Shown here: piece by piece, positions 5,101-31,640 of the stretch | Layout: every line of letters begins with the position of its first letter | How positions within the stretch are numbered: position 1 is the first letter of the stretch | NCBI GenBank assembly: GCA_027311945.1 | Contig: DAICXZ010000030.1 | Coordinates: 62,001-126,000 of the forward strand | DNA from: Erythrobacter sp. | Lineage (GTDB): Bacteria > Pseudomonadota > Alphaproteobacteria > Sphingomonadales > Sphingomonadaceae | Length of the DNA stretch: 64,000 nucleotides | Reading direction: 5' to 3' | Position numbers and translations under genes: made by a program | Notes under the pieces: generated by a model | Told to the model about the DNA's origin: nothing | Database searches by the model: none | What the model saw: only the letters and a program-made list of their open reading frames with translations

Positions 5101-6430
5101 GATGACCCGCCTGCTTAACGCTCCGCTCGGCGGAGGCGTGCGTTACGATGGCCCGGCCGATACGCTGTTCTCCTTCGCGGGGATGACCAACCAGACGCTT
5201 ACCGGCGGAATCGGCCTTGCGGTCGATCTTGCCGGGAAGGTCGATCAGCCCGAAATGTCGGGTGTGATCCGCGCCAAATCGCTCGCCTACGAGAACCAGA
5301 CCTATGGCACCCGGCTCACCGACATGGCCGTCTCGGCGCGCTTCAATGGCGAGCGGGTCGAGCTGGAGAAGCTTCAGGCCAAGGCAGGCGATGGCACGCT
5401 CGATGCGACGGGGTCTCTGAGCCTCGCCTCGCAGTCGGGATATCCGATGGATGTCGCGGTGAGCCTGCAAAATGCGCAGCTGGCGTCGAGCGGCAACATC
5501 GCCACCTCGGCCACCGGCGACCTCAAGCTTACTAAGGTCGCGGGCGAGACTGCGCTCCTTTCCGGGAAGCTGACCCTGCCCGAGACGCGCTACACGATCG
5601 TGCGCCAGTCTGTTGCCGAGGTGCCCGCGCTGTCGGGCGTGCGCTTTGTGCCGCAGCGCGGGCCGCAGCGCGTGACCGGTGACGAACCCGCCGAACGTGG
5701 GCCCGGCCTGTTGAGCATGGTCCGGCTCGATGTCGAACTCAATGCACCGCGCCGGCTTTATGTGTCGGGTATGGGGCTTGAATCCGAATGGGGGGCGAAC
5801 CTGCGCCTCACCGGCACCAGTGCGGCACCGCGCCTGTCGGGCAATGTCGGGCTCCAGCGCGGTACGCTGGGCTTCGCCGGGCGCTCGTTCGAGCTGCAGC
5901 GCGGCAATATCGCGTTCCTGGGCGGGAGCGAGATCAACCCGACCATCGAAATCCAGGCCACCGAAACCATTGAGGGTGTGGCGGTTAATGTCGGCATTGC
6001 AGGCCGTGCCTATGATCCGCAGATCACCTTCACCTCTGTGCCGAGCCTGCCGCAGGACGAAGTGCTGGCCCGCGTCTTGTTCGGCAGTTCGATCGGCAAC
6101 CTGTCGGCGCTCGAGGCCGTGCAGCTGGCGGCCTCGCTCAATTCGCTGCGCGGGACGGGCGGGGGCCTGAACCCGCTTGGCGCATTGCGCTCGGCAACCG
6201 GGATCGACCGGCTCCGCGTGCTCGGCGCCGACGACACCACCGGGCGCGGCACGGCGCTGGCTGCCGGGCAGTATCTGACAGACGACATCTACATCGAGTT
6301 CATCACCGACGCGAAGGGCTTCACCGCCACCCAGCTCGAAGTGGCGCTGACCCGCACGCTTTCGGTGCTGAGCCAGGCTGGCGGTTCGGGCGAGACCAAC
6401 GTCAACCTCCAATACAGCCGCGACTACTGA
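2189..6430 (+). CDS. tamB: TamB, translocation/assembly module inner-membrane protein (AsmA-like)
   Basis: 1413 aa, single N-terminal TM, long beta-rich repeats, conserved C-terminus (GSSIGNLSALEAVQLAASLNSL, DDIYIEFITDAKG, LQYSRDY). Directly follows tamA. Confidence 0.9.
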   Translation: MADEVDMPEVEGEPETVAKPGRPTWQKVARWGALVLGVLVLLVVVVIIGLDTKAGRQFVAEKVAGLSFENGMEIGIGEIDGSLYGNMVIRDLELRDPQGVFLTAPEVSVGWRPFAFINNHVDVRVLSSPLITLERLPEFAETPPSDAPLLPDLDIDIGALRVDRLVVEAPVSGERRVAQLRGNAHIAEGRAQVTLNGETLAVDGGAAGDKLALVLDAVPEENRLELALDVDAPTGGMLAAMAGLDEGLKLTAKGQGNWDQWDGQLTADRAEESVARLDVSARDGLVRVRGPAQIGWLFDGATAQLLAPELNLDLAAQLGERSADIEATVASDAFRLNAQGLVNLADNSFDGLGLDFVLTRPSALADNLSGRGLRAVLTLDGPFATPYVDYKLAADRVVLDDMGLTGLAAQGRATVNSEQIMIPVQASVRRITGLDTVAGGRLENVRLAGDLAISGSRILSDNMRLTSSRIDAGLILVADMSTGLYTGAIDGRIDNYRVESVGLFDIRTDADLETEAGGGFAMTGRVNMRSTQLFNEGVRNFLGGNVTAASDVRYGADGVVRLSGLSLRSPDVRINGGSGTWSPDGRISLDAKGTTTAYGDVGVKLTGTIADPDAVITASNPGLGIGLANLRAGVTGAPGGYHLDATGDTDYGPLRADVTLKMGNQLAIEVNDSDLGGIGFSGAIAQSREGPFIGRLNAEGRGLTGIVRLDSAEGVQEALFNLRAKNTVLDGPAQLAIGSAKIDGRVVLHDQPHVVAAFDLTRTSFGAFDINAAKGEINYRGGSGSAKVLAEGTSGVPFRIGLNAQMTPELWRAAIKGRARGIDFSTASPARIVVGEGEYKLLPTQIDFGNGSVRLAGSYGDGMKLQSRLDRLDLAVFNAFVPDLGVAGSATGSLDFSQASPDTFPDADARLTITGFSRSTAATVSQPVNINFVGKLEPDGGEARAIMRRRGSVIGRMVASLKPLPPGSGSWMTRLLNAPLGGGVRYDGPADTLFSFAGMTNQTLTGGIGLAVDLAGKVDQPEMSGVIRAKSLAYENQTYGTRLTDMAVSARFNGERVELEKLQAKAGDGTLDATGSLSLASQSGYPMDVAVSLQNAQLASSGNIATSATGDLKLTKVAGETALLSGKLTLPETRYTIVRQSVAEVPALSGVRFVPQRGPQRVTGDEPAERGPGLLSMVRLDVELNAPRRLYVSGMGLESEWGANLRLTGTSAAPRLSGNVGLQRGTLGFAGRSFELQRGNIAFLGGSEINPTIEIQATETIEGVAVNVGIAGRAYDPQITFTSVPSLPQDEVLARVLFGSSIGNLSALEAVQLAASLNSLRGTGGGLNPLGALRSATGIDRLRVLGADDTTGRGTALAAGQYLTDDIYIEFITDAKGFTATQLEVALTRTLSVLSQAGGSGETNVNLQYSRDY

Positions 6431-6603
6431 TGCGCCTTCGCCTTATCCCCGTCGTGATGGTGGTGCTGCTGTCAGCCTGCAATCAGGAGCCTACCTTCGA
6501 GGAACGCTACTCCGAGGCGGAGGCGACCATTTCGCAGCAGGCGCAGTCGATCGACTCCGATCTTGAGCAAACGGGCGAGCCTGCTCCCAGCCCGACGCCT
6601 TAA
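6430..6603 (+). CDS. Small (57 aa) putative lipoprotein
   Basis: Below the ORF-track cutoff. ATG overlaps the tamB stop (ctactgATG). Translates as MRLRLIPVVMVVLLSACNQEPTFEERYSEAEATISQQAQSIDSDLEQTGEPAPSPTP with lipobox LLSAC. Confidence 0.72.
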   Translation: MRLRLIPVVMVVLLSACNQEPTFEERYSEAEATISQQAQSIDSDLEQTGEPAPSPTP

Positions 6604-9500
6604 CTGCCGACGTAAACGAAGGGTGCCCAATAGGCGGGATGCTGCAAGCGTGGCTCGCCGCTATCGTCGATCAACGCCAGCACCGCGCGGCGCAGGCCCT
6701 CGGCAGGCGCGATGCCCTCGCGGTAGTAGCTCTCGACCGTCGGCACGGTGATCGCGCGGGCGACGTCGTCGGCCACTTCCCAGTGCGAGACCAGCAGGTT
6801 GCGCGCGCCGGCATAGAGGAAAGCGCTGGCAAGCCCTGAAAGCCCCGCCGCGCCGGGCCGGTCGGGCCCGCCGGTGTTGCAGGCCGAAAGCACCACCCAG
6901 TCGGCATCCATATCGAGCGCGGCGATCTCGCTGGCGGTGAGCAGGCCATCGTCGCCATCGTTGGGGGTGAGCACCAGCGCCGGTTCGGCAAGACCTGCCA
7001 GATCGCCTTCGAGCAGCCCGTGCGTGGCAAAGGCGATCACCTCGGCGGGCTGGGCGATTTCGGCCAGTACACGGGTTTCGCGCGCATCCTCGCCGGTCAG
7101 CAGGACGGTCTCAGCGGTATCGAGCGCGCGCGACAGGGCGTTCAGTTCTGCCAATGCTTCGGGCAGCGGCGGGAGGTCGGCCACGGTGGCGCCAAGTGCG
7201 AGCATGCGCGAGGAGCGCAAGGTGGTCAGCGCCGTGCCGCCGAGTACCGGCGCGCCAACTGCGACGACGCGCGCGGCACGAGGGCTTTCGGGGCTGGGTG
7301 CGCGCGCCAGTGTCGAAAGCGAGGCAAGGGTCGAGAGGCTGTGATGGCGGATCACCCAGTCGGCCTCGGCCAGCGAGGGGGCGGCAGGCGCAAGCGCGGC
7401 GAAGGGAATGCGGGTCAGCGCGCCGCCGGCAGCAACCATGATGTGATCGGCCCCTTCGAGCAACTGCCCGCTCTCGCCCTCGAACAGCGCGGCGAAAAGC
7501 GCGGCACCGGGGGCAAAGTCGTAGGCCGGTTGGGCGGATGCCTTGCGGGCAGGGGCGGCGAGCACACCGCGCATCAGCACATCACCTCCGGCCAATGCGC
7601 CGCGCATGTTGGCCGCGAGGGAGGAGACTTCGCGGCTGTCGAGGGGGGCCAGATGCATCGAGTGCGCATCCTTCGTGGCCACCAGCACGGCCAGCCCGGT
7701 TGGCAGCGGCTGGGCCAGCAGCACGGCATCGCCTTCACCAAGGCTCGCCTGTACAGCGGCGAGGGTGATTGGCTCGGAGCCGGTGAAGCTGGCGGGGTCG
7801 ACAGCACGTCCAGCCTCGGCCAGTTCGCTGCGCGCGCTGGCGATCTGGGCACGCATCTCGGCCATCGTCTCGGGAGCGACGCCGATACTCATCGCTTCGA
7901 GCTGCTGGTTGGCGAGGCCGCGCAGCGCCTCGGCCTTGTCCTGATAGCTGCGCACGGCCAGCGCATCGGCCGCGCCAAGCCCGCGTCGGAAGGCCGCCAA
8001 CTGCACCGAGCGGTCGGCCTTGGTGGCGAGGCCATATTGCGCAAAGCGGAATGCGGCATCGAAGTCGCCTGCATGCATGGCCGCATCGAGCGCCCAGTCA
8101 TTCGCCTGCCCGAGAATGGCGAGCTGCACCGCGTCGGGCTCTCCCGAGGCGGCGATGGCATCGCGGTTGGCAATCAATTGGGCGTGGGCGGCGGCAACCT
8201 CGTCGATCCCGCCGATTCCGGCGCGAATGCCGTATGCGCCGAGCATGATCTGGCCGGTCAGGTCTTCCCACAGGGCGGTGTCGTCGCCAGTCGAGCGCCC
8301 CTCCTGCGCTGCCAGCTGAGTGACATAGGCATCCCGCGGGCGGCCTGCCTCGGCATAGAACTCGGCCAGAGTTTCCTGCCCGGCGATGCGGCGATAGCTC
8401 GCCGGTTCCATCGTTTCGGCGCGCAGGGCATCGGCGGCTTCGGCCACCATGATCGCCTCGTCGAGCCGCCCGAGATCGCGCAGCGCGTGGGCGCGCGCAT
8501 GCTGGGCATAAAGCGTAAGCTCACCCTTCGGGCCATGGCCTTGTTCGATAAAGGACAGCGCTTCATCGACCGTGGCGAGCGCATCTTCCGCCGCGCCCTT
8601 CTTGATCAGCGTCTGCGCAAGACTCAGCCGCATACTGGAGGCCATGCCCATGTCGGGCTCTTCAGCGCCCATCGCCAGCGCAATGGCGCGGCGCGAGAAA
8701 CGTTCCGCATCGTCGAGCAAGCCGCGTTCCGCCGCGCGGATCGACAGCGAATTGTAGGCATTGGCCAGCACCGGGTGATTGGGCGGCAGCAGCGCTTCCA
8801 TTTTCGCCGTCAGCCGCTGTCCTTCGCTCAGGGCCTTGTCGCTCTCGCCCAGCGCGGCCCAGTAGGTGGGGGTGTTGGTGAGATAGCTGATCAGTTCGGC
8901 AGCGGGGGCTTCGAGCCGGTCGATCAGGGCCTCGACCTCGGCCATGTAGGTGATGGCGGCGCGCGACTGTCCGTCTGCGTTGAGGATATACGCAGCGTTG
9001 TTGAGGCTGGCAGCGAGCCCTGCGATAAAGCTCTCGTTGCCCGGCTCATGCTCCAACAGCTTGCGCCGCGCGGCCAGCACTTGCTCGCTGATGGCGCGCG
9101 CAGCGGCAAGATCGCCCATGCGCACGCGCGCCGCCAGCAGCGCGTTCATGCCCGACAGGCGATTGGGGAGGTATCCCTCACCCGCTGCCTCAAGGATGGG
9201 CAGGATCGCCTCAATCCGTGCCGCTCCCTCGGCGAAGCGCCCTGCGTTCAGATCGGCGATAGCCAGCTCATAATCGATCAGCGCCAGCTCGGGGTGGCCT
9301 TCGGGATAGAGCGTTTCAGCAAAGGTGCGCGCCTCTTCCAACGCGGCGCGGAAGGCGGGTTCGTCGGTGTGCGGATCGATCTGGAATGCACTCTCGAGCA
9401 TGGTGTCGAGCTGCGCGCGGGCGGCCTCGCCAGGCTCGGCGTGTGCTGCGTGGGCCGCAAGCAGAAGGGCCAGCCCGGCCAAAGGCAGACGAAGATGCAT
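6600..9500 (-). CDS. Secreted TPR + CHAT-domain (caspase-fold) peptidase
   Basis: Signal peptide MHLRLPLAGLALLLAAHAAHAE; TPR-like helical middle; C-terminal CHAT dyad motifs FATHG (His) and LSACNTG (Cys), then LVSHWEVADD. Confidence 0.88.
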   Translation of the reverse strand: MHLRLPLAGLALLLAAHAAHAEPGEAARAQLDTMLESAFQIDPHTDEPAFRAALEEARTFAETLYPEGHPELALIDYELAIADLNAGRFAEGAARIEAILPILEAAGEGYLPNRLSGMNALLAARVRMGDLAAARAISEQVLAARRKLLEHEPGNESFIAGLAASLNNAAYILNADGQSRAAITYMAEVEALIDRLEAPAAELISYLTNTPTYWAALGESDKALSEGQRLTAKMEALLPPNHPVLANAYNSLSIRAAERGLLDDAERFSRRAIALAMGAEEPDMGMASSMRLSLAQTLIKKGAAEDALATVDEALSFIEQGHGPKGELTLYAQHARAHALRDLGRLDEAIMVAEAADALRAETMEPASYRRIAGQETLAEFYAEAGRPRDAYVTQLAAQEGRSTGDDTALWEDLTGQIMLGAYGIRAGIGGIDEVAAAHAQLIANRDAIAASGEPDAVQLAILGQANDWALDAAMHAGDFDAAFRFAQYGLATKADRSVQLAAFRRGLGAADALAVRSYQDKAEALRGLANQQLEAMSIGVAPETMAEMRAQIASARSELAEAGRAVDPASFTGSEPITLAAVQASLGEGDAVLLAQPLPTGLAVLVATKDAHSMHLAPLDSREVSSLAANMRGALAGGDVLMRGVLAAPARKASAQPAYDFAPGAALFAALFEGESGQLLEGADHIMVAAGGALTRIPFAALAPAAPSLAEADWVIRHHSLSTLASLSTLARAPSPESPRAARVVAVGAPVLGGTALTTLRSSRMLALGATVADLPPLPEALAELNALSRALDTAETVLLTGEDARETRVLAEIAQPAEVIAFATHGLLEGDLAGLAEPALVLTPNDGDDGLLTASEIAALDMDADWVVLSACNTGGPDRPGAAGLSGLASAFLYAGARNLLVSHWEVADDVARAITVPTVESYYREGIAPAEGLRRAVLALIDDSGEPRLQHPAYWAPFVYVGS

Positions 9501-9505
9501 GAATT

Positions 9506-9534
9506 TTCCCCCGAGGCAGGCTGCCCCGGGGGAA
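9506..9534 (-). promoter_or_regulatory. 29-nt hairpin 6 nt upstream of the CHAT-peptidase start codon
   Basis: Minus strand: TTCCCCCGGGGCA-GCC-TGCCTCGGGGGAA then AATTCATG. 13-bp stem with one G.U pair; the 3' arm contains the SD-like GGGGGA. Confidence 0.6.
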
Positions 9535-9580
9535 GAAGTATCGCCAATTGGCGCGGTGTAAAGGTTACGGAATGGTTTGT

Positions 9581-12500
9581 TCAGGGAACGGACACCCCGA
9601 ACACGGCGGAGCCGTCAATCTGCTTATCGAAGGTGGTGTTTCCGAACGTATAGACCACGCCCGCATAGGTGCCGCCGTCTCCCGCCAGAAAACCGTTGAT
9701 CGTTGCGCGGCAATCGCCGCTGCCCGCGCAGGCCGGGCCGCTGCCCTGCGCCAGCACCGGCTGGTTATACTCGGTGAAGAAGCGCATGTTGCCGGTGTCG
9801 AGTGCCATTCCGCCAGCCATTGGATCGGCCACACCGCCCGGCGTGTTGATGGCATAACTGTTGCCGCCAATCGCCACATCGAACTCCACGCCGACCTTGG
9901 GCGTGCTGCCAAAGGCCACGGCCAGCTCGCCCGAGAAGCTGCCCGGTGCCAGCGATCCATCGCGGATCGTTGGCGCGGTCGATCCGATGAGGGCATATTG
10001 CACGGTGCCCGAGGTGGGGAGGTTCGTGGCCGGATCGCCCGCCACGACATGCCAGCCGCCATTGGCGGGCAATTCGATGCCGTCCTGGTCGGCGTAAAAG
10101 CGCCCGCCCGTGGTGCCGCCCGCCCAGCGCGTCCAGCCGATCACGCCCGCCACGCTGCCGCTGTCGTGCTGGGTGTTGTTGCCGATGGTGGGGCGCTCGT
10201 CTTCGGTGGTCGAGGAATTGAGTTCCCAGACATAGGCGAGCGGTGCGCCGGTCGTGGTGTCGTAGGTCACCCGCGAATCCTCGCGGCTGTCGATCCCGAC
10301 CGTGGAAGACGAATAGATCACGATCTGGTCGGTCTCCTCGGTGCCGGTGGGTGGCGGCACCACCTCGCCGGGATCGTAGGTCCCGCCGAAAGCGGCCGCG
10401 CCGCCAATCAGCGGGAGGTCCGTTGACGTGTCACGGACCAGGTAGGCCAGCGAAGCATAGGTGCCCCCGTCGCCGCCGAGGCGGCTTGAGAAGGTCGCTC
10501 CGCAGGTTGCCGACGATGCGCATGCTGCGCCCGACCCCGTCATGGTAACAGGTGCATTGCCGTAGAAATTGCCGACCGAAGACCCAATGACGCTGGGCGC
10601 TGCGACGCCGCCCTCGGTGGCGAAGGCGTAGCTCGCATCGCTCATCGTCACCGTCGCTTCGAGACCCAGCATGGGTGAGCTGCCCAGCGTCACCGCCATC
10701 TGCCCGGCGAAGGTGCCCGGTGCGCTGCGGCCGTCCTGATAGGTCGGCTGGGTGGCGCCGAGCAGGGTGTAGTCAATCCGCCCGGAGGCAGGCAGGTTCT
10801 CGATCACCGGGATCAGCGCATAGCCAAAGCCGCTGTCTGGTCCGTACAGGCTGCCGAACGAACCGGTGTCGCTTTCGATGCTGCCGCCGTTGAACCGGCC
10901 GACCTGCCAGTTGGCATCGCCGGCAAGATCGGCCACGGCCAGGTTGCCGCGGCGGATATAGTCGATCTGGTCGTTGACTGTAACGCCATAGGCGCGCACC
11001 AACCCGCGGCTATCGGTGACGATGGGGAGATAGGCGATCGAAGTGACGGCCGCTTGCTTACGGTTCGCGCCGCCAGTGTCGACATAGCTCAACATCCCGA
11101 TGTCATCGGCGAAGGGTGCGGTAAGCGAGCCGCTTGCAACGCCCGCGTCAACGCCCGTTTCCAGCCCGGCCAGATCGGTCGAACCGAATATCGCGGCCCC
11201 GAACACGTCGGTGCCCATGTTGCCGCTCAGGGTATAGAACGTGGAGGCGATGGTGCGGAAATCGTCGGTCAGCTGGCCGAACAGGCGCAGGCTGCACGTT
11301 GCGCCAGCCGGGCAGACCGCGCCTTCACCTGTAAGCGGGGCGACCCCGAACAGGCCCGGACGGCTTATCTGCACCCCCGATGTCGCGACCGCGTCCAGCC
11401 CGCCGGTGGTGCTGAACGTATAGACGCTGTCCATGGTGAGCGAGCCTTCCATGGCGAACTTGGGCGAGATGCCGAAGTCGACGGCCAGCTCAGCCGTGAA
11501 TGTGCCCTCGCTCAGCGACCCGTCGAGGGCCACGACCGGGGAGCTTTCGATGAGCTGGTAAGTGGCGCTGCCAGCCGTTGGCAGGAACAGCGCCGGGTCG
11601 CTCACCGCAACCACAAACGCGCTTTGCCCTGGGGCGATCGTGCGTTCGGTGGTCGCCGAGGTGAGCGTGCCTTCTCCGTAACGGGTGATGATCGCATCGT
11701 CGTTGCCGAACTGCGAGATCAGCGTTGCAGTGCCGAGGGAGAAGACATCGTTGACCGTACTCACCGTGTTATCGGAAATTTCCGTGAACCCGCCATCGGC
11801 GCGCCTTGCGGCAGGGCCGGAGATCGAACTCGTGAGGTGGAGTACCGTGTTGGCTCCGCTGGTGCCGGGCACGGCGACAATTGCCGAAACCCTTGTCAGA
11901 TCGAAATTCGGCCCGACCTCGTAATTGCCGCCGCCGCTGCTGCCGCCACCGCTGCTAAGCGGATCGCCCTTGGCAAAGCCCGCCGTGCCGAGCACTTCGG
12001 CCCCGCCCGCATCCTTGGCGATATAGGAGATCGCCAGTTCCGCAGCCTCATCGCCCGATATGTAACCGCGGATTTCGCCGGTGCATCCGCCCGAGCCCTG
12101 ACAAGCAGCGCCGGTGCCGATCACCTCGATCAGGCCGCCGGTGGTTTGCAGCACTTCGCCGAAGAAGAAGCCCGGTGCCAGATCTTCGCGCAGGGCAATG
12201 CCGTTCTGCGCGGTCTGGGCGATGCCGCCGATGGTTTGCAGGGTATAGCTGCGATCGGCGAAATCGGTTTTCAGTTCCGCACCGACGCGGGTGGTCGAAC
12301 CGAAGCTGATCGCCGCCTTGGCCACGCTGAGCGAGCCGGCCTCGCCGCCGGTGAGCGTCGGGTTGGTGCCGCCGACGAAATCGTATTCGATGAGCCCCGT
12401 GGCGGGCATGTTCGTCGCCATCGGACCGGCAATGACGTGGATACCGTTGGCCCCGAGGTCGAGTTCGGTGTTCGCCTGCGCATAGGCGGTGCCATTGACC

Positions 12501-14029
12501 CAGCGGCCCCACGCGACACCTCCATCGCTGATGCGCCCGGCTTCGATCAGCTCCGCCTCGCCGATAGCGGCGCGGGTGGTGCCAAAGTTGAAGAACAACG
12601 GTGCGCCGGTCGCCTCGTCATAGACGACATTGGCGCGGCTGCGGTCGATCTGCCCGTTGAACGGGGCGAGTTCGGTCTTGCTGCCGCGCAGGGCCATGAA
12701 CTGGTTGCTCGCCAGCGTGCCTGCGGGAGTGGGGAATTCCGGCGGCGGGGGCAATTGCTCGAACTCGTCGATGTTGCCCCCGTTCTGCAGGAAGGTGAGG
12801 TAGGCTCTGAGGAACTGCGCCTGCCCGGTCAGCAGCGTATCGAACAGGCCGCGCGAGGAGAGCGCTTCGAGATAGGCCTGAAGCGCCTGTGCGTTGAGCC
12901 CGCCGAACTCGCTAGGCACCCCGCCCGAGAGCACGAAACTGGCATAGGCCTGTACCGCTGCGACATAGGCGGCGATGGCGTCTTCGCTCAGCAGGCTGGC
13001 AGGCGCGACGAACTCGCTCGGCACGCCGCCGCTGCGCAAATAACCGAGATAGGCCGAAAGCAGGTTCTGCTGCGCCGCGCCGATCCGGCCAAGCTGCCCG
13101 GTGAGCTGGAGATAGTCGATATAGCTGTTCAGCTGCGACAGGTCCGCCCCGGTATAGTCGCTGGCAAAGCCGCCGTTGGCGAGCAAGGTCAGATACTGGC
13201 TGACGAGGCTGGCATAGGCGCTCTGGAATTCGCCGATCTGGCCGTTGTTGGCGAGATACTGGAGGTACGCGTTGACCAGTAGGGGGCTTGCGCCCTCGAA
13301 GCTGGCGCCGCCGCCCAGCGCCGCCGCAAGCCTGTCCGAATAGGCGAGCAGCCGGGCGACATCGCCGCTCGGCAAACGCGCCACCGCAGGGTTGGCGAGG
13401 TATGCTTCGACACCGCGTGCCGCCGCCACCACATCGCCCGATGCGCCTACCCCGGCGAGACCTTCGCCAAGCGTCACCGCAAGGCCGTTCATGGCGGCCT
13501 GCGCGATGGTCTGGCGGGTGGTGGCGAAGGGTGATCTGCGGGTGCTGCCGTTGGGGCTGGGCTGGGCGGCATTGGCGACCACGCGCGAGCTGCTCGAACC
13601 CACGGCCGCAGCCCAGTTCTGACCTGGCCGATAGGTGCGGGTGGCTGTGCCGGTCGTCACCTGCATCGTGCCGCCCATCACGTTGCCGGAGAGCTGGCCG
13701 TCTCTCACCGCCAGCGAGCCGGAGCCGGTCACCGTGGCCTCTGCTCCGCCCGGCAGGCGCAGCACGACCCCCGAGCCTTCCGCCCCGGCGACGGTCACGC
13801 CGCCATTGGCCAAGGTGATCTCCTCACCATCGAGCGAGAACTCGGCTGGCCCCACAATCGAAACCACCGCGCCTGAATCCATGCGGATCTGCGCGACCCC
13901 GCCTTCGGCGACGGACTGGCTGCTGGCGGTGTTTCCGCTGCTGGTGAACAGGATGTCGGCTGCCTGCGAGGGAGCCGAAGCGACGGCGAGCGTGGCTACG
14001 CCCAGAAATAGTGCTTTGCGCATGTTCAA
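9581..14029 (-). CDS. Giant secreted FecR-domain protein with helical repeats and four tandem beta-rich (TbpB-like?) modules
   Basis: Signal peptide MNMRKALFLGVATLAVASAPSQAA; FecR-like segment GGVAQIRMDSGAVVSIVGPAEFSLDGEEITL; short AYLxYLxxGG repeats; four divergent ~220-250 aa modules ending GDGGTYA...(A/G)xFG. Confidence 0.82.
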   Translation of the reverse strand: MNMRKALFLGVATLAVASAPSQAADILFTSSGNTASSQSVAEGGVAQIRMDSGAVVSIVGPAEFSLDGEEITLANGGVTVAGAEGSGVVLRLPGGAEATVTGSGSLAVRDGQLSGNVMGGTMQVTTGTATRTYRPGQNWAAAVGSSSSRVVANAAQPSPNGSTRRSPFATTRQTIAQAAMNGLAVTLGEGLAGVGASGDVVAAARGVEAYLANPAVARLPSGDVARLLAYSDRLAAALGGGASFEGASPLLVNAYLQYLANNGQIGEFQSAYASLVSQYLTLLANGGFASDYTGADLSQLNSYIDYLQLTGQLGRIGAAQQNLLSAYLGYLRSGGVPSEFVAPASLLSEDAIAAYVAAVQAYASFVLSGGVPSEFGGLNAQALQAYLEALSSRGLFDTLLTGQAQFLRAYLTFLQNGGNIDEFEQLPPPPEFPTPAGTLASNQFMALRGSKTELAPFNGQIDRSRANVVYDEATGAPLFFNFGTTRAAIGEAELIEAGRISDGGVAWGRWVNGTAYAQANTELDLGANGIHVIAGPMATNMPATGLIEYDFVGGTNPTLTGGEAGSLSVAKAAISFGSTTRVGAELKTDFADRSYTLQTIGGIAQTAQNGIALREDLAPGFFFGEVLQTTGGLIEVIGTGAACQGSGGCTGEIRGYISGDEAAELAISYIAKDAGGAEVLGTAGFAKGDPLSSGGGSSGGGNYEVGPNFDLTRVSAIVAVPGTSGANTVLHLTSSISGPAARRADGGFTEISDNTVSTVNDVFSLGTATLISQFGNDDAIITRYGEGTLTSATTERTIAPGQSAFVVAVSDPALFLPTAGSATYQLIESSPVVALDGSLSEGTFTAELAVDFGISPKFAMEGSLTMDSVYTFSTTGGLDAVATSGVQISRPGLFGVAPLTGEGAVCPAGATCSLRLFGQLTDDFRTIASTFYTLSGNMGTDVFGAAIFGSTDLAGLETGVDAGVASGSLTAPFADDIGMLSYVDTGGANRKQAAVTSIAYLPIVTDSRGLVRAYGVTVNDQIDYIRRGNLAVADLAGDANWQVGRFNGGSIESDTGSFGSLYGPDSGFGYALIPVIENLPASGRIDYTLLGATQPTYQDGRSAPGTFAGQMAVTLGSSPMLGLEATVTMSDASYAFATEGGVAAPSVIGSSVGNFYGNAPVTMTGSGAACASSATCGATFSSRLGGDGGTYASLAYLVRDTSTDLPLIGGAAAFGGTYDPGEVVPPPTGTEETDQIVIYSSSTVGIDSREDSRVTYDTTTGAPLAYVWELNSSTTEDERPTIGNNTQHDSGSVAGVIGWTRWAGGTTGGRFYADQDGIELPANGGWHVVAGDPATNLPTSGTVQYALIGSTAPTIRDGSLAPGSFSGELAVAFGSTPKVGVEFDVAIGGNSYAINTPGGVADPMAGGMALDTGNMRFFTEYNQPVLAQGSGPACAGSGDCRATINGFLAGDGGTYAGVVYTFGNTTFDKQIDGSAVFGVSVP

Positions 14030-14038
14030 GTATCCCTC

Positions 14039-15352
14039 TTAGAATTCCGCGCGAATGCCGAAGCTCGCGGTGAAGCGCTCGTAATCGTAGAGCGCGATGT
14101 TCGACCAATTGCGGGTGTAGGTGACGCGTGGGCGGGCATAGACATTGCCCGTCAGCCGGAACTTGAGGCCGATGTTCGCGTCGACCTGCTCGTCCTCACG
14201 CGCGGTGAGGAACAGCGGATCGTCGGCGCCGTAGCCGCGGATCTGGCCGCCGATCCCGCCGACCACGGCCAGACGCTCGCCCGCCGGGAGTTCGAACGCG
14301 AGGTTGGCGCGGCCATAGCTGTAGGACAGGTGATCGCCTGCCGATCGGCGGGTCTCCTCCCGTCCGCCTGCTGCGCTGAGCACGAAGGTGCGCGCGGCAT
14401 AGGTCACACCCGCGCCATACCGGTTGGAATCGCGCAAGGGATCGTTGTCGAAGTTCTGGCGGAAGAACTCGCCCGAGACCGACAGGGCGCGCCCGCCTTC
14501 GAGCCGGTGTGTATATTGCCCGATTACCCCGAACGCTTGCCGGAAGCTGTTACCGCCGAGCCAGAACTGCTGCCCCTGCAACGAGAGCGAGACGACATCG
14601 CGGCTGGCCAGCGTATGCGCGACCCCGGCGGTGCCGGTGGCAGCGCTCTGGTCGAACCCGGCTTCCAGGTTCTCGCGGATATTGGCGAGCAGCGAACCGA
14701 ACAGGCGCGTCTGGCGTGAGACCCCGCTCACTGCCGAGACCCCGCCAACCGCCTCCAGATAGGCGGCGTCGGTTGCCTGCGCGTTGGCGCCAAGCTGGCC
14801 GGGACCGAAGCCTGCAAACAGCGGGATCACGATGGAATCGAGATCGGTCGCACCGTTGACGTTGCTGTCGAAGCCCGCCGTCAGGTCGAGGAAGCCCGAA
14901 ACATTCGAGCCGCCGCCCGCGATCTGGCGGTCGTAGTTGCGCACGATCTGATCGAACCGCTGGCGCACCGGATCGGGCAGCGAGGGATCTTGCATCGCGG
15001 TATCGAATTCGGCCCGGGCGGTGTCGATATCGCCCGCCAGCGCATAGGCGCGCGCCAGTTCCGCGCGGGCCTGTGCATTGTCCGGCTGAACGGCGAGCAC
15101 ACGCTGGAGTGCGATGACCGCTTCGGCCGGGTGGCCACTGTCGGCCGCCGCAATGCCGAGAGCGAGATCGTAGTCGGCATCGCCCGCGCGGGTGGCTTGC
15201 AGCGGTATCAGCAGCGCGAAGGCCTCTTCCGAGCGGCCCGCCTGATGGAGCGCGAGGGCATTGGCGACGGCATCGTCGACCTCCGCCAGAGCCGGCCCCG
15301 CCGCGCAGACGAAGCCCGCGCAGGCAGTGGCAAACAGGACAGGTCTTAGCAT
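14039..15352 (-). CDS. TPR + C-terminal beta-barrel outer membrane protein, surface lipoprotein assembly modifier (SLAM/DUF560)-like
   Basis: Signal peptide, N-terminal TPRs (GHPAEAVIALQRVLAVQPDNAQARAELARAYALAGD), then alternating amphipathic strands ending ...FTASFGIRAEF (terminal aromatic). Confidence 0.75.
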   Translation of the reverse strand: MLRPVLFATACAGFVCAAGPALAEVDDAVANALALHQAGRSEEAFALLIPLQATRAGDADYDLALGIAAADSGHPAEAVIALQRVLAVQPDNAQARAELARAYALAGDIDTARAEFDTAMQDPSLPDPVRQRFDQIVRNYDRQIAGGGSNVSGFLDLTAGFDSNVNGATDLDSIVIPLFAGFGPGQLGANAQATDAAYLEAVGGVSAVSGVSRQTRLFGSLLANIRENLEAGFDQSAATGTAGVAHTLASRDVVSLSLQGQQFWLGGNSFRQAFGVIGQYTHRLEGGRALSVSGEFFRQNFDNDPLRDSNRYGAGVTYAARTFVLSAAGGREETRRSAGDHLSYSYGRANLAFELPAGERLAVVGGIGGQIRGYGADDPLFLTAREDEQVDANIGLKFRLTGNVYARPRVTYTRNWSNIALYDYERFTASFGIRAEF

Positions 15353-15364
15353 GGTAAATTCATC

Positions 15365-15391
15365 CCCCCAGATACAGCACGTAACTGGAGG
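15365..15391 (-). promoter_or_regulatory. Hairpin covering the SD-like G-run upstream of the SLAM-like gene
   Basis: Minus strand CCTCCAG-N13-CTGGGGG then G ATGAATTTACC ATG; 7-bp stem including one G.U pair. Confidence 0.4.
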
Positions 15392-15422
15392 CTGTGTGCG
15401 TCAGGCGGGGCGTGAATTCGCC

Positions 15423-16766
15423 TTACGAAACCTGACGATGATTGCGTCGCGGCAGGATCAACTCGGCCAGCGCGCCCTTTTGACCATTGGCGAGGCTGAA
15501 GCTGCCGCCGTGCTGGCGAGCGACCGCGCGCACGATGCGCAGGCCGATGCCATGCCCGCCCAGCGTAGAGCGAGGGGACTGGTCGGCCATCGGCGCAAAG
15601 CCGGGCCCTTCGTCGGCCACGCGGATCACTGCCGCATCCTCGCGGCAGGCAAGTGCCACGCGGATCGCGGCGCCCTCGGGCGAGACCTTGAGCGCGTTGT
15701 CAAGCAGGTTCGCCACCGCGCGCACCACCAGCGAGGCGTTGCCTGTTGTCATGCATGGGCCAAGCTCACGCAGGATGCGCACATTGTGCTCTTCCTCGGC
15801 CACCGCTTCGTACAGTTCGATCGCATCTTCGAGCGCCTTGGCGACGTCGAACGGCTCGACCGACAGCGCGCCTTGCGTTTCGATCTCGCGCAGTTCGAGC
15901 AGGGCGTTGAAAGCTTCCATCAGCCGCGCCAGTTCCTCACTGGCGAGCCGCACCTCGGCGGCAGGGCGCGTATCGCCGAGCATATCCTCCAGCCGCGACA
16001 GCCGCGCCTGTACCCGTGCGAGCGGCGTGCGCAGGTCGTGCGCAAGGCCGTCGGCGGTGTCACGCAGGGCTTCGAGGCGGCGCTGCAATTCGTCGAGCAT
16101 GGCGTTCATATGGGTGGCCAGCGTGCCCAGTTCATCGTTGGTGGTGACCGGGTGGCGCGCGGTGACCTCGCCTTCCTCAACTCGTTCGCAGAGGGCGTTG
16201 AGCCGCGCGATCCTGCGGCTGATCGCGGCCCCGGTGATCCAGGCCACGAGGCCAGTGACGGCGACGATTACCGCCACGATCGCCGCGCCCCAGCGCCAGA
16301 AGGCCTGCGTCAGCGGCCCGGTCGAGGCAACACGGTAGGCGACCAGCACCGCGCTGCCGTCACCAAGGCTGCGGACCACCCCGGCATAGGCGGTGCCGCC
16401 TTTGCGGAAACTCACATAGCGGGGTGCGAGCGGGTCGAGATCGCTCGGCCAGCTTGCTGCTCGCGCCTGGGTGCCATGCACCGCAATGTAGCGCGCCTGA
16501 CCGGATTCGCGGGCCATCGCTCCCAGCTCCCCCAGCGCGGCGAGCGCCAACCCGGCCATTTCCGGGTCTTCGCCAAGGCCGGGCAGTTTCTGCGCCAGCT
16601 CGGCATATTCGCGCTCGGCATTCTCGGCGGCGCGCAGCTCGCGGGCGGTGGTGTCGATCCGCCACAGCACCAGCGTCACCAGCGCCACCGCCAGTGTGGT
16701 CGCCAGCGCCATGGTCAGCGCGGCGAGGATCGGAATGGGCACCTTGCGGGAGAGCGTGCGCTCCAT
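15423..16766 (-). CDS. Sensor histidine kinase (HAMP, HisKA, HATPase_c)
   Basis: H-box AHDLRTPLARVQARL; N-box VANLLDNALKVSP; G-boxes DEGPGF and LGGHGIGLRIVRAVARQHGG. Confidence 0.93.
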   Translation of the reverse strand: MERTLSRKVPIPILAALTMALATTLAVALVTLVLWRIDTTARELRAAENAEREYAELAQKLPGLGEDPEMAGLALAALGELGAMARESGQARYIAVHGTQARAASWPSDLDPLAPRYVSFRKGGTAYAGVVRSLGDGSAVLVAYRVASTGPLTQAFWRWGAAIVAVIVAVTGLVAWITGAAISRRIARLNALCERVEEGEVTARHPVTTNDELGTLATHMNAMLDELQRRLEALRDTADGLAHDLRTPLARVQARLSRLEDMLGDTRPAAEVRLASEELARLMEAFNALLELREIETQGALSVEPFDVAKALEDAIELYEAVAEEEHNVRILRELGPCMTTGNASLVVRAVANLLDNALKVSPEGAAIRVALACREDAAVIRVADEGPGFAPMADQSPRSTLGGHGIGLRIVRAVARQHGGSFSLANGQKGALAELILPRRNHRQVS

Positions 16767-16793
16767 CAGTTTCTGGCCATCAGTTCTTGGCCA

Positions 16794-17579
16794 TCAGCCT
16801 TGCTGGCTCAGGTCGCGCAGCATCAGGCCCTGGCTGCGGACCGAGAGGATCAGCGGGCGCAGCGCCTCGTCAAGCTCGCCGCTCGCCGCCTCCAGCTTCT
16901 TGCGCAGGCGCGAGACATGCACGTCGATGGTATTGGCCGCGTTCGAGGGCATGAAGTTGTAGTCCGACCAGCAGCGGCTCCACAGCATCGAACGGGTGAC
17001 GGGCAGGCCAGTGCTTTCGCCCAGCACCTGCAGGATCGCGTGCTCGCGCGGGGTGAGGTCAAGCGGCTGGCCGAACAACTGCGCCGACATCGCGCGCGAA
17101 TCGATCAGCAGGGGGCCGTTCTCGATCCGCTCGGCCTGTTCGGGCGTGGCCCAGCGCGCGCGGCGGCGGATCATCGCGGCAACACGCGCCAGCAGCTCGG
17201 TGTCGGAGACGGGCTTCACGATGTAGTCGTCCCCGCCTGCCGCGAGCCCTTCCACCTTCTGCCGCTCGGTGCCGAGAGCAGTGAGGAACAGGGCGGGGGC
17301 ATCGGCGGAAGGGCCGCCGCTTTCGCGGATGCGTTCAAGCGCGGAGACCCCGTCAAGGCCGGGCACCTGCCGGTCGAGGATCAGGACATCGTAAGCCTTC
17401 TCACGCGCCTGCGTCAGCGCGGCGGTGCCGCTCGAAACCACGTCCATATCGGCAAAGCCGTGGCGAGAAAGCGCCGAGGCGAGACTGCCCGCCAGCTCGG
17501 CCTCGTCTTCGAGCACGAGCGCCGAACACCCGGCAAACAGGCAGCGCAGGCGTTCGTCGAGAGCATCGTCGCTGATCAT
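16794..17579 (-). CDS. OmpR-family response regulator
   Basis: Receiver with LVLEDE, LILDRQVPGLDG, KPVSDTELLARV; C-terminal winged-helix LTPREHAILQVLGESTGLPVTRSMLWSRCW, HVSRLRKKLE. Confidence 0.93.
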   Translation of the reverse strand: MISDDALDERLRCLFAGCSALVLEDEAELAGSLASALSRHGFADMDVVSSGTAALTQAREKAYDVLILDRQVPGLDGVSALERIRESGGPSADAPALFLTALGTERQKVEGLAAGGDDYIVKPVSDTELLARVAAMIRRRARWATPEQAERIENGPLLIDSRAMSAQLFGQPLDLTPREHAILQVLGESTGLPVTRSMLWSRCWSDYNFMPSNAANTIDVHVSRLRKKLEAASGELDEALRPLILSVRSQGLMLRDLSQQG

Positions 17580-17680
17580 CGCCGGGTTTTGCCGTGCGCG
17601 GAGGCTGTTGGGAAGGCTCTTCAGGATACTTCAGGCCTGCGTGGCTGGTTTGTTAAGGGGGCCAAGGCTATGAACGGCGC

Positions 17681-18370
17681 ATGGATATTGCGCGCAGACC
17701 GACATTCCCGCTGGCAAGGGCAATGTTTCTTGCCGCGCTGGGAATCGCCACGGGCGCTTGTGTCGCCGGGGACCGCTCGGCTCCGGTCGAGGCGTTTGCA
17801 GAATCTGGCAGCCCCGTGGCGCGCGCCGAGCTGGCGCTACGGCTGGCGAGCGAAGCGCGCCGCTCGCACGATGCCCGCGCGATGCTGGTGGCCGCGCGAA
17901 TGATGCTGACGAGCGGCACGCGTCCCGCCGTGCTCGAAGATGGTGCGCTGGTGGCCGATGTGGATGGAGACCCGGTCGCTCACGGCTGGGCGCGCGAGGC
18001 CATCGCACTGGCGGGCGATAATGCCACGCTTGTTGGCGAGGCCGAGCAGGTGCTCGCGATGCGTCCGCGCGGGGTGCTTCGCAGCAGCCTCGGCGGTGGC
18101 CCCTTGCGTTATGTGCGGCGGGTCTCGGCCAACGAAAGCGTGCGCTTCGACATCAACACCCAGCCGCAGGTGCCTGCGCGCCTCGCCGCGATTGGCGATG
18201 GCGATGCGCGGATCGGTCTGATGGTGAGCGCCGGAAAAGCGCGCATCTGCGACCAGCGCGCCCGCTCGACCCATTCGCTCTGCACCTGGCAGGCGGCGAG
18301 CGAGCGGCACGATGTCACGCTCATCAACGCGGGGCCGCTGGCCAGCGATGTGATGATCCTGTCGAACTAG
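17681..18370 (+). CDS. Small exported protein (putative lipoprotein), unknown function
   Basis: 229 aa; N-terminus MDIARRPTFPLARAMFLAALGIATGACVAGDRS; stop overlaps the convergent caspase stop (CTAG). Confidence 0.7.
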   Translation: MDIARRPTFPLARAMFLAALGIATGACVAGDRSAPVEAFAESGSPVARAELALRLASEARRSHDARAMLVAARMMLTSGTRPAVLEDGALVADVDGDPVAHGWAREAIALAGDNATLVGEAEQVLAMRPRGVLRSSLGGGPLRYVRRVSANESVRFDINTQPQVPARLAAIGDGDARIGLMVSAGKARICDQRARSTHSLCTWQAASERHDVTLINAGPLASDVMILSN

Positions 18371-19698
18371 TCGCCGACCGCGAATTCGATGATCGCCGCG
18401 CGCTCTGCTGCGGTATCGCCCTTGCGCCAGAACAGCAGCAGGCGGTCGGTCCCCGCCGGATAGGATGCGCCGGTGGCCGGATCGTGGTTGACGAAGGTGA
18501 AATCGAGATGTGCGGGCGAGCGGCCATCGAGATAGAGCCCGCCGATGGGCGAGAGGAGGGTGCGGAGGCCCGCGCTGTCCACATACCAGGCATCGACGAA
18601 GCCCGGCTCGGTCGCGGCAAGCGCGAGCATCACCGCATCGCAATGATCGAGGGGCAACCGCTGCGCCGGATCACGCAGTTGCGGCGGGCCTGCGGATTCG
18701 ATGTCGCACCCCGGCGCGGCGGCGGAATGGAGGTCGAGTGACCATTCGGGCAGTGCCATGGCCCGCGCGCTCGCCACCAGATCGGGCAGCTCTCCAGCAA
18801 AGAAGAACGCGCTTTCGATTGCGCCGCCCGCCTCGCTGGCGGGGCCGGGCAAGGCCGAGCGGGCTTGCTGGCGGCGCTGCTCGCGCACCAGCTCCACGAA
18901 GTCGGCGGGCGATGCGGCGAGGGCAGGGGCGAGGCTGCGCGTGAATAGCCCACCCTCGGGCGTGTCCCATGCGGCATCGCCGGTCGGCCCGGCGGCGAGC
19001 GTTACGAGCCGTCCGCTGCCTGCTGGCATGTCGTCCTCCACCCACGCGGCATCGCGGCGCTGTGCCGAGCGCAAGGTCCGGTTGGGCACACCGAGCACGG
19101 TGGGTGAGAGATTGCGCACCGCCATATGCTCACCCCCGCGCATCGCGCCGCCCGAGGCGCAGCTGTCGATGGCGAGGAACACGTCGGCCCCGCGCTCGCG
19201 CATGGCGCGCACGGCGGCGGCGAGTTCGTCGTCGACCAGCGCGCCGGGCAGCGCGCCATCGCGCCACTCGCCCGCATCGGCCAGCAGCAGCACCTCATCC
19301 TCGCCATCGGCTTCGTCGCGCGGGCCGGTATCGGGGATGCGGCTGCCGTGGGCGGAAAAATAGAGCACGATGCGCTGGCCCGGCATGGCGCTGTTGGTGA
19401 GCCGGGTGAGTTCTTCGCGGACTCGCGCCAGCGTCGCCGCTGCGCCTTCGAGCCCCACGGTTTGTGCTTCCGCGCCCACGAAGCCCCTGAACGCGCCGCG
19501 CATAGCCACCGCATCGGCGCGCGCTCCGGCAAGAGCATAGGGCGCCAGCGCCGGATCGGTGAACTCCGACACGGCGACGATCAGCCCCGCAACCGGGCGC
19601 GACGCCTCTTCCGCGCGCGCACCGTGGGCGGCGAGCACGATAATCGCCGCGAGCGAGCATAGGGAGAGGCGAGCGGCCACTATCACGCCTGCCGGCAT
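18367..19698 (-). CDS. Secreted caspase-family (p20 / peptidase C14-like) protein
   Basis: Likely start at MPAGVIVAARLS (track extends to 19737). Signal peptide; dyad motifs LYFSAHGSR (His) and FLAIDSCASGGAMRG (Cys). Confidence 0.86.
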   Translation of the reverse strand: MPAGVIVAARLSLCSLAAIIVLAAHGARAEEASRPVAGLIVAVSEFTDPALAPYALAGARADAVAMRGAFRGFVGAEAQTVGLEGAAATLARVREELTRLTNSAMPGQRIVLYFSAHGSRIPDTGPRDEADGEDEVLLLADAGEWRDGALPGALVDDELAAAVRAMRERGADVFLAIDSCASGGAMRGGEHMAVRNLSPTVLGVPNRTLRSAQRRDAAWVEDDMPAGSGRLVTLAAGPTGDAAWDTPEGGLFTRSLAPALAASPADFVELVREQRRQQARSALPGPASEAGGAIESAFFFAGELPDLVASARAMALPEWSLDLHSAAAPGCDIESAGPPQLRDPAQRLPLDHCDAVMLALAATEPGFVDAWYVDSAGLRTLLSPIGGLYLDGRSPAHLDFTFVNHDPATGASYPAGTDRLLLFWRKGDTAAERAAIIEFAVGD

Positions 19699-19845
19699 AG
19701 CACGGACGTGGCCTAAAGGCATGGCCCACAAGCACAATGTCAGGCTTCGTCAGGGCTTGTGGCCTTGCCGCTCCACCGCCACGCAAAGGCGCACAGGCCT
19801 GACAATCATATTGCATTGCAGCACCAAGGGGCGTCTAATCCCGCC

Positions 19846-30653: not shown

Positions 30654-31535
30654 CTATTGGAGATCCTCGACCGAGACCCAGCCGCGCGTGCCGAAGCTGT
30701 CTTCGGCTTCGATCCACAGGCCGTCGCGCTGGCCGGTCGGGGCGAGCGCGGTTCCGGCACGCAGCGCGCGCACCTCTTCGGCTGAGGGTGAAGCGGAAGC
30801 GCGCATGGCGGTGTTGACCGCGACGGTCGCAGCGGTTGCAGCCGCTGCCGGGGCCGCGCTGGCGGCAGGCGCAGCAGTGAGTGCGGAGCCTTGGGCGACG
30901 ATGCTATTGAACGCGATCACGAAGGCCTCGGTCAGCTTGCGGCCTTCTGAGCTGCTGGCATAGCCACTGGTTTCGGCCAGACCTCGCGCAAAAGAGCCGC
31001 CCGATCCGCGAAAACTGAGCGAAGTTGAGCGAACGGTGCCGGTTCCTGCGGCAAGCGGTTGGCCGGTTGCCGGGTTCACCACCGAAAGCCCGGCGGCAAC
31101 GGTGGTCTTCCGCCCACCTAGCCCGCCGAGCATTCCCAGCGCCGCGCCGCCGAACGGCACTGAGCTGAGAATACTGGCGGCCGCCCCAGAACGCACAAGC
31201 GCTTCGGTGGCGGCGGAGCGGGCGAACTCGACGCCCTGATCGACCTCTTCCTGCGTTCCGGCCACGGCGGTAACCAGGAAGCGCGCGGGTTCGGTCCCGC
31301 CGCTGTGCGGGGTGAAGCAACCGCTTTCGGTGGCAAGGCGGGCGAGCAACTGGCGCGGTGAGCCAAGATTCCACTGCGACCAGCCAGCATTCGGGCTGTC
31401 GACCAGCGCAATGGAGCCGAGGCTGGCCTCGCACTTCACCAGTTCGACCGGCTCGTCTGCCAGCGCCGGGCTGGCTGCGGTTATGGCGATGGTGGCTGCG
31501 GCAGCAAGGCTCGTGGTTTTCAGTGTGGTGTGCAT
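30654..31535 (-). CDS. Exported protein with C-terminal SH3-like segment; middle may be CsgG-like
   Basis: Signal peptide MHTTLKTTSLAAAATIAITAASPALAD; C-terminal GTALAPTGQRDGLWIEAEDSFGTRGWVSVEDLQ. Confidence 0.6.
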   Translation of the reverse strand: MHTTLKTTSLAAAATIAITAASPALADEPVELVKCEASLGSIALVDSPNAGWSQWNLGSPRQLLARLATESGCFTPHSGGTEPARFLVTAVAGTQEEVDQGVEFARSAATEALVRSGAAASILSSVPFGGAALGMLGGLGGRKTTVAAGLSVVNPATGQPLAAGTGTVRSTSLSFRGSGGSFARGLAETSGYASSSEGRKLTEAFVIAFNSIVAQGSALTAAPAASAAPAAAATAATVAVNTAMRASASPSAEEVRALRAGTALAPTGQRDGLWIEAEDSFGTRGWVSVEDLQ

Positions 31536-31640
31536 CTTCGATCCCCCGTGTTTAACCGGGGCGATGATAGCTCTGGCTATCCCGAAGGGCTGCCTGACGT
31601 ATCCTGAAGATGCAGTAAGGCTATGAAAATCATAATAGAA

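Follow-up and report, generated by a model that had tools for sequence, protein, structure and literature searches.

What could be the function of a locus in which a SLAM-like outer-membrane protein, a giant surface protein and a two-component system are encoded together with two caspase-fold peptidases? Bacterial caspase and CHAT proteases are usually treated as effectors of death or defence that act inside the cell, and both peptidases of this locus carry signal sequences. The locus lies in a 64,000-nucleotide stretch of Erythrobacter sp. DNA, hereafter called the window and analysed at its full length. The reading favored here, to which a probability of about 0.6 is assigned, is that one two-component regulon has two outputs: display of the giant by type 11 secretion (T11SS) and extracytoplasmic proteolysis by caspase-fold enzymes.

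The first-pass annotation had described a minus-strand run of response regulator, histidine kinase, SLAM-like protein, giant and CHAT peptidase, with a small lipoprotein and a secreted caspase next to it. This arrangement was confirmed by a codon-model gene caller, an open reading frame listing and Pfam matches. The genes, together with a recurring partner that lies further along the window, beyond the range covered by the first-pass annotation, are as follows:

6600..9500, minus strand: CHAT-TPR peptidase (966 aa; N-terminal signal sequence; Pfam CHAT 5e-47)
9581..14029, minus strand: giant surface protein (1482 aa; orthologues lie directly after SLAM)
14039..15352, minus strand: SLAM/T11SS outer-membrane protein (N-terminal TPRs and C-terminal barrel; SlipAM/TPR_Slam matches in orthologues)
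15423..16766, minus strand: membrane histidine kinase, HK (Pfam HAMP, HisKA, HATPase)
16794..17579, minus strand: OmpR/PhoB-type response regulator, RR, subtype B (Pfam Response_reg/Trans_reg_C)
17681..18370, plus strand: LIPO, a small protein, either secreted or a lipoprotein, oriented divergently from RR (possible alternative start 17723)
18367..19698, minus strand: secreted C14 (p20) caspase-family peptidase, CASP (443 aa; Pfam Peptidase_C14 6.9e-9)
30654..31535, minus strand: CSGG, secreted, with C-terminal SH3b and a weak CsgG/TolB-N-like fold (recurring partner, 30/59 loci)

The five genes from RR to CHAT are separated by intergenic gaps of 9-80 bp on the same strand and may be co-transcribed; a promoter and terminator scan of the window yielded a number of sites not above that in shuffles. 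The regulatory pair is of the OmpR type, the regulator consisting of a receiver and Trans_reg_C and the kinase of HAMP-HisKA-HATPase. TamA/BamA-like and TamB-like genes (window 48-6430) adjoin the CHAT gene, and a TamB-like gene also follows CHAT in the Aurantiacibacter xanthus locus (L097).

Do these genes belong together? An alignment search with SLAM returned 80 loci, 60 of which are Sphingomonadales-type including the window, 59 of them with gene calls; the closest SLAM found was that of A. xanthus (94% identical). Across the 59 loci the giant follows SLAM wherever the contig continues (contigs end at SLAM in L148, L150 and L158 and inside the giant in three more), HK and RR are each present in 47, the LIPO family in 39 (34+5), CHAT in 28 and a C14 caspase in five, all being lower bounds because many contigs are cut. 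Relatives of the giant were detected in 6 of 150 other genomes of the family, and the regions around them carry the same genes. One genome (G101) has the complete set, CHAT-giant-SLAM-HK-RR, LIPO, caspase and CSGG. The partners are shared amid flanks that are unrelated between most loci, with shuffled gene order and across many genera, and neither scattering of the genes nor loss of active sites was found among relatives. The genes of the locus are a conserved system, as had been proposed, with one amendment to its membership: HK, RR, SLAM, giant and CHAT recur, but the C14 caspase is an accessory component. The cargo beside SLAM relatives of beta- and gammaproteobacteria consists of barrel units and lacks the giant's N-terminal domain, and these partners are absent there.

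The SLAM/DUF560-like identity proposed earlier was borne out through orthologues, the window copy alone scoring 15.9 bits against SlipAM (PF04575), under the cut-off of 22 bits. Orthologues with 51-67% identity match SlipAM at 2.3e-10 at best (5/6 members at E<=1), and the N-terminal TPRs match TPR_16 (4e-8) and TPR_Slam (6/6 members, best 1.1e-4). Environmental Sphingomonadaceae T11SS proteins were reported to form subcluster 1C (Grossman 2021, PMC8406197), and multi-barrel "Sphingomonas surface proteins" have been described (Grossman 2025, PMC12282271); both papers are silent on FecR, CHAT, caspase and histidine kinase. Family assignment and the modelled fold of its neighbour support the SLAM-like protein being a T11SS exporter encoded with its cargo, which would make the giant its exported substrate.

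The giant itself can be divided into the following regions:

13565..13954, minus strand: FecR-like N-terminal domain, tentative (4/26 orthologues match PF04773, best 5.8e-4)
12710..13312, minus strand: helical repeat region of the LLxAYLxYLxxGG type, read from sequence (repeat number varies among orthologues)
11963..12544, minus strand: unit 1 barrel core (HMM 1.8e-54)
11174..11719, minus strand: unit 2 barrel core (HMM 1.1e-52)
10376..10939, minus strand: unit 3 barrel core (HMM 2.3e-54)
9587..10363, minus strand: unit 4, C-terminal handle-barrel with the T11SS-cargo fold (AF2 and Foldseek)

A profile of the last unit revealed the four tandem units in the window giant; with the unit profile, the giants of the first relatives showed 2-4 barrel units each and those of the larger set 1-5, at protein sizes of ~800-2200 aa. 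HphA, fHbp and TbpB are known cargo of SLAM (type 11 secretion). An AF2 model of the unit, built on 55 units (pLDDT 93.7, pTM 0.91), matched at E<=1e-3 HphA of Stenotrophomonas, Vibrio and Haemophilus, Acinetobacter hemophilin, a haemophore, fHbp and TbpB. The top matches, HphA, fHbp and TbpB (prob 1.00, E 3e-5), have TM-scores of 0.4-0.5 at ~10-15% identity, and therefore indicate a common fold and a distant identity. With a C-terminal handle and an eight-stranded barrel in the model and a gene that adjoins that of a T11SS outer-membrane protein, the giant is predicted to be SLAM/T11SS cargo. It has a signal sequence (...SAPSQA, read from sequence), and no lipobox was found among 54 giants. 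For FecR, named in the earlier description, there are weak matches in the four orthologues above, and the window giant has no Pfam match at all. Many giants of A-type loci, defined below, continue past the last barrel in a C-terminal tail of 46-131 residues that contains a WxRW motif and often finishes in an LLGGMITF-like sequence (L103, L106, L108, L111, L122, L128, L129, L133, L140 and others); the window giant is without it.

Is the two-component system dedicated to these genes? Two RR subtypes can be distinguished, ~70% identical within (B mean 69%) and 36% between A and B, and each goes with its own operator. The type-A operator is TAACA-N5-TGTCA-N6-TGACA. The type-B operator, CTGA[AC]-N5-CTGA, is common to the divergent RR/LIPO promoters of B-type loci, and occurs in the window at three places:

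17621..17634, minus strand: CTGAAGTATCCTGA, RR/LIPO divergent promoter, exact match
19740..19753, minus strand: CTGACGAAGCCTGA, 42 bp upstream of the caspase start
31594..31607, plus strand: CTGACGTATCCTGA, ~60 bp upstream of CSGG

At A loci, the type-A operator was found upstream of 27/28 CSGG and 31/53 SLAM genes (the other 22 SLAM promoters have no clear site), and at none of the B-locus promoters. The exact type-B operator was found in 0/122 A promoters, and at B loci in 5/6 RR and 4/5 CASP promoters. Type-A matches of at least 12/15 number 121 in 1.01 Mb (54 loci), against 11 in mono-nucleotide shuffles, and nearly all are upstream of SLAM, CSGG or RR. Over the whole genomes of G017 and G102, matches with up to two mismatches fall at the SLAM and CSGG promoters only; G091 has three extra matches elsewhere, equal to the control of 3. 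The type-B motif is short, and its strict matches number 18 in 540 kb, 14 of them at RR/LIPO, caspase and CSGG promoters (our own count). With one mismatch allowed, the window holds 6 matches against 8.9 expected by chance, so that what counts is where the sites lie and that they are conserved. Since the pattern was partly derived from the promoters that it explains, and was widened to [AC] so as to take in the site at the caspase, its independent support is that of other loci and of a distant match at a second caspase gene described below. That the operator type tracks the RR subtype at the same targets is the strongest argument for binding by the local regulator, and the proposal of a dedicated two-component system gains support from operators that are common to its genes and change with that subtype. 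The RR would thus be expected to bind these operators. The type-B motif resembles the CenR site of Rhodobacter (TGA-N8-TGA; PMC9275681), and cross-talk with a global envelope regulator is therefore possible. A candidate motif upstream of RR, GGCTGGGT, was ruled out, since it corresponds to the end of the CSGG coding sequence (GWVS). The 14-mer CTGACCCCTTCTGA occurs at 123-136 of contigs C5, C16, C18 and C31 of the own genome (G000), and also at C23:16624; being equally far from several contig ends, it probably belongs to a single repeat element that the assembly has broken up.

The His/Cys motifs attributed earlier to both peptidases are present and conserved. In the CHAT protein (signal sequence ...AAHAAHA), the His is in FATHG at residue 824 and the Cys in LSACNTG at 871, and the dyad is kept in every orthologue whose sequence covers the region; in the caspase (signal sequence ...AAHGARA, both read from sequence), YFSAHGSR is at residue 113 and IDSCASGG at 177, and the dyad is kept in 8/8 relatives. 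The own genome has one CHAT gene and two C14 genes. The product of the second C14 gene (contig C6:6124-8718, L226) combines a signal sequence with several PPC-like repeats and a caspase domain. The likely start of this gene is preceded at ~80 bp by the operator-like site CTGAATAGTCCTGA, and the gene is followed at 8820-9494 by one that resembles OmpR-type regulators. Each of the three genes for caspase-fold peptidases in this genome is thus in an operator-bearing unit, CHAT being counted because the operator stands at the head of the RR-HK-SLAM-giant-CHAT run. Over the genome, type-B matches number 35 against 14 for a reversed control, and therefore single matches are weak. No type-B operator was found at two further caspases of G005, both without a signal sequence by eye, nor any operator upstream of the stand-alone CHAT genes of G005, G116 and G035. 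Two-partner secretion partners were considered for stand-alone CHAT genes and rejected, none being present among ten large neighbours. At L131:14430-15587 the giant is followed by another, partial CHAT-like gene, which has AAHG and SACQTG motifs of its own.

By alignment, the small post-kinase protein of other loci belongs to one family with the window LIPO, with two invariant Cys in the C-terminal domain. SH3_3 is present in 21/22 CSGG members, of which one matches the CsgG profile (0.022); the Foldseek match is weak (9e-3, TM 0.2). A PDB sequence search with barrel-unit, CSGG and LIPO profiles returned nothing informative. At L179, L180 and L186, a CSGG-like gene stands alone near pheS/pheT-type genes, the rest of the system being absent.

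How might these parts work together? The membrane kinase, probably aided by the LIPO protein encoded next to it, would sense an envelope or surface condition, and the phosphorylated RR would bind the direct-repeat operator and switch on both outputs. In the first, the SLAM/T11SS protein would carry the giant, with its 1-5 tandem hemophilin/TbpB-fold units, to the cell surface. The second would comprise the extracytoplasmic CHAT peptidase, in some species also C14, and the CsgG/SH3b protein. The peptidases may act on envelope or surface proteins, with the giant as the nearest candidate substrate; that it is cut directly is a serious possibility, although we lean against it.

Which of the outputs is the core? 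One alternative, a serious one though less likely than not, is that the core would be a program of secreted caspase-fold peptidases under HK/RR/LIPO control, serving envelope stress, lysis or inter-bacterial conflict, into which the T11SS giant was recruited in Sphingomonadales. The distribution of LIPO speaks for it: the family is present at 24 loci in 151 family genomes, 18 of them with a CHAT or C14 gene no more than 7 kb away, and across the class (337 genomes) in only two other families, where LIPO adjoins CHAT (L194) or the order is HK-RR-LIPO-LIPO-C14 with CHAT ~2 kb further (L195). The cluster at L095:185-15500 (G133) reads RR-HK-DegP-like protease-LIPO-CHAT-TPR-LIPO-C14 caspase, followed by a TonB receptor, and the operator at the second C14 gene points the same way. 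However, CSGG-RR-HK-LIPO occurs without SLAM and without a neighbouring peptidase in L182 and L187, and a PADLOC/defence-library search matched the caspase domain only.

Another reading, that the giant is the obligate substrate which CHAT, and perhaps the caspase, cuts at the surface for maturation or shedding, seems rather unlikely. Other clan CD peptidases do process surface proteins, SLAM, giant and CHAT are consecutive in the window, L098 and L097, and their regulation is predicted to be common. The giant is also poor in Lys/Arg (4.3%, against 8.5% for window proteins), with basic pairs, for example RR164-165 where the N-terminal domain gives way to the helical region, although low Lys/Arg could be ordinary in surface proteins. 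Against an obligate relation, many SLAM-giant loci among the 59 have no adjacent CHAT, and many regulator-peptidase modules have no giant: regulator, LIPO and peptidase occur without SLAM or giant in L177, L178, L090, L091 and L195, the first two having CSGG, RR, HK, LIPO family and CHAT. The outputs are thus separable across genomes, which weakens the giant-cleavage idea; cleavage is possible and not required. At L185:6937-9353 (G133), a 233-aa SLAM remnant adjoins CHAT without a giant, by appearance a decayed locus. In its boldest form, the two-output regulon would put the two-component system in charge of all caspase-fold peptidase genes in the genome, each with a secreted product, and of a giant that is exported by type 11 secretion and then cut or released by those peptidases at the surface; this form is doubtful.

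Haem or metal acquisition, with the giant as a hemophilin/TbpB-like binder and its FecR-like domain as a signalling element, is suggested by the nearest folds, HphA, haemophores and TbpB, and is improbable. No ECF sigma factor, TonB receptor or haem family is a conserved neighbour in the 59 SLAM loci, as the first-pass annotation had remarked for sigma factor and receptor at this locus, and the regulators are OmpR-type; moreover, the handle-barrel is a T11SS-targeting fold common to cargo and not a haem marker (PMC12282271). A chance assembly or a single mobile island, to which the patchy distribution (SLAM in 8/151 family genomes) might point, is hardly credible, being already contradicted, barring an artefact in the operator pattern, by the many genera, shuffled order, unrelated flanks and operators that switch with RR subtype.

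The regulon with two outputs, if correct, would place CHAT and caspase proteases, predicted here to be exported, under common regulation with a surface display system, and would assign a predicted cargo, as well as a regulator, to the Sphingomonadaceae branch of type 11 secretion. The operator sequences in hand make the predicted regulon directly testable. The literature searched contained no paper joining SLAM with CHAT or caspase, which is not proof of novelty.

What distinguishes this locus from known systems? The giant N-terminal domain weakly resembles FecR, but the conserved neighbourhood lacks the sigma factor and TonB receptor of FecR/FecI/FecA. CSGG shares a weak fold match with CsgG, PelC and TolB-N, but has an SH3b domain, and no curli or Pel genes were found. 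CenKR is likewise an OmpR-type envelope regulator with a TGA direct repeat; its regulon is broad and includes envelope genes (PMC9275681), whereas the regulon here is small and its operator changes with the local RR subtype. As in known T11SS (SLAM/DUF560/SlipAM), an outer-membrane protein with N-terminal TPRs and a C-terminal barrel stands beside a handle-barrel cargo, but here the cargo is a giant in which a FecR-like/helical N-terminus replaces the Pro-Thr repeats, there is no lipobox, and a dedicated HK/RR pair and caspase-fold peptidases are added. With EACC1, CATRA and Craspase/Csx29, the peptidases have the CHAT/C14 folds and His/Cys dyads in common; the EACC1-type caspase profile scored 25.6 bits, far below its 140-bit cut-off, the CATASP profile gave 0.016 at best, and the locus has no NTPase or CRISPR partner. 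Unlike those systems, the peptidases described here have signal sequences, a link to a two-component system and a predicted association with surface export.
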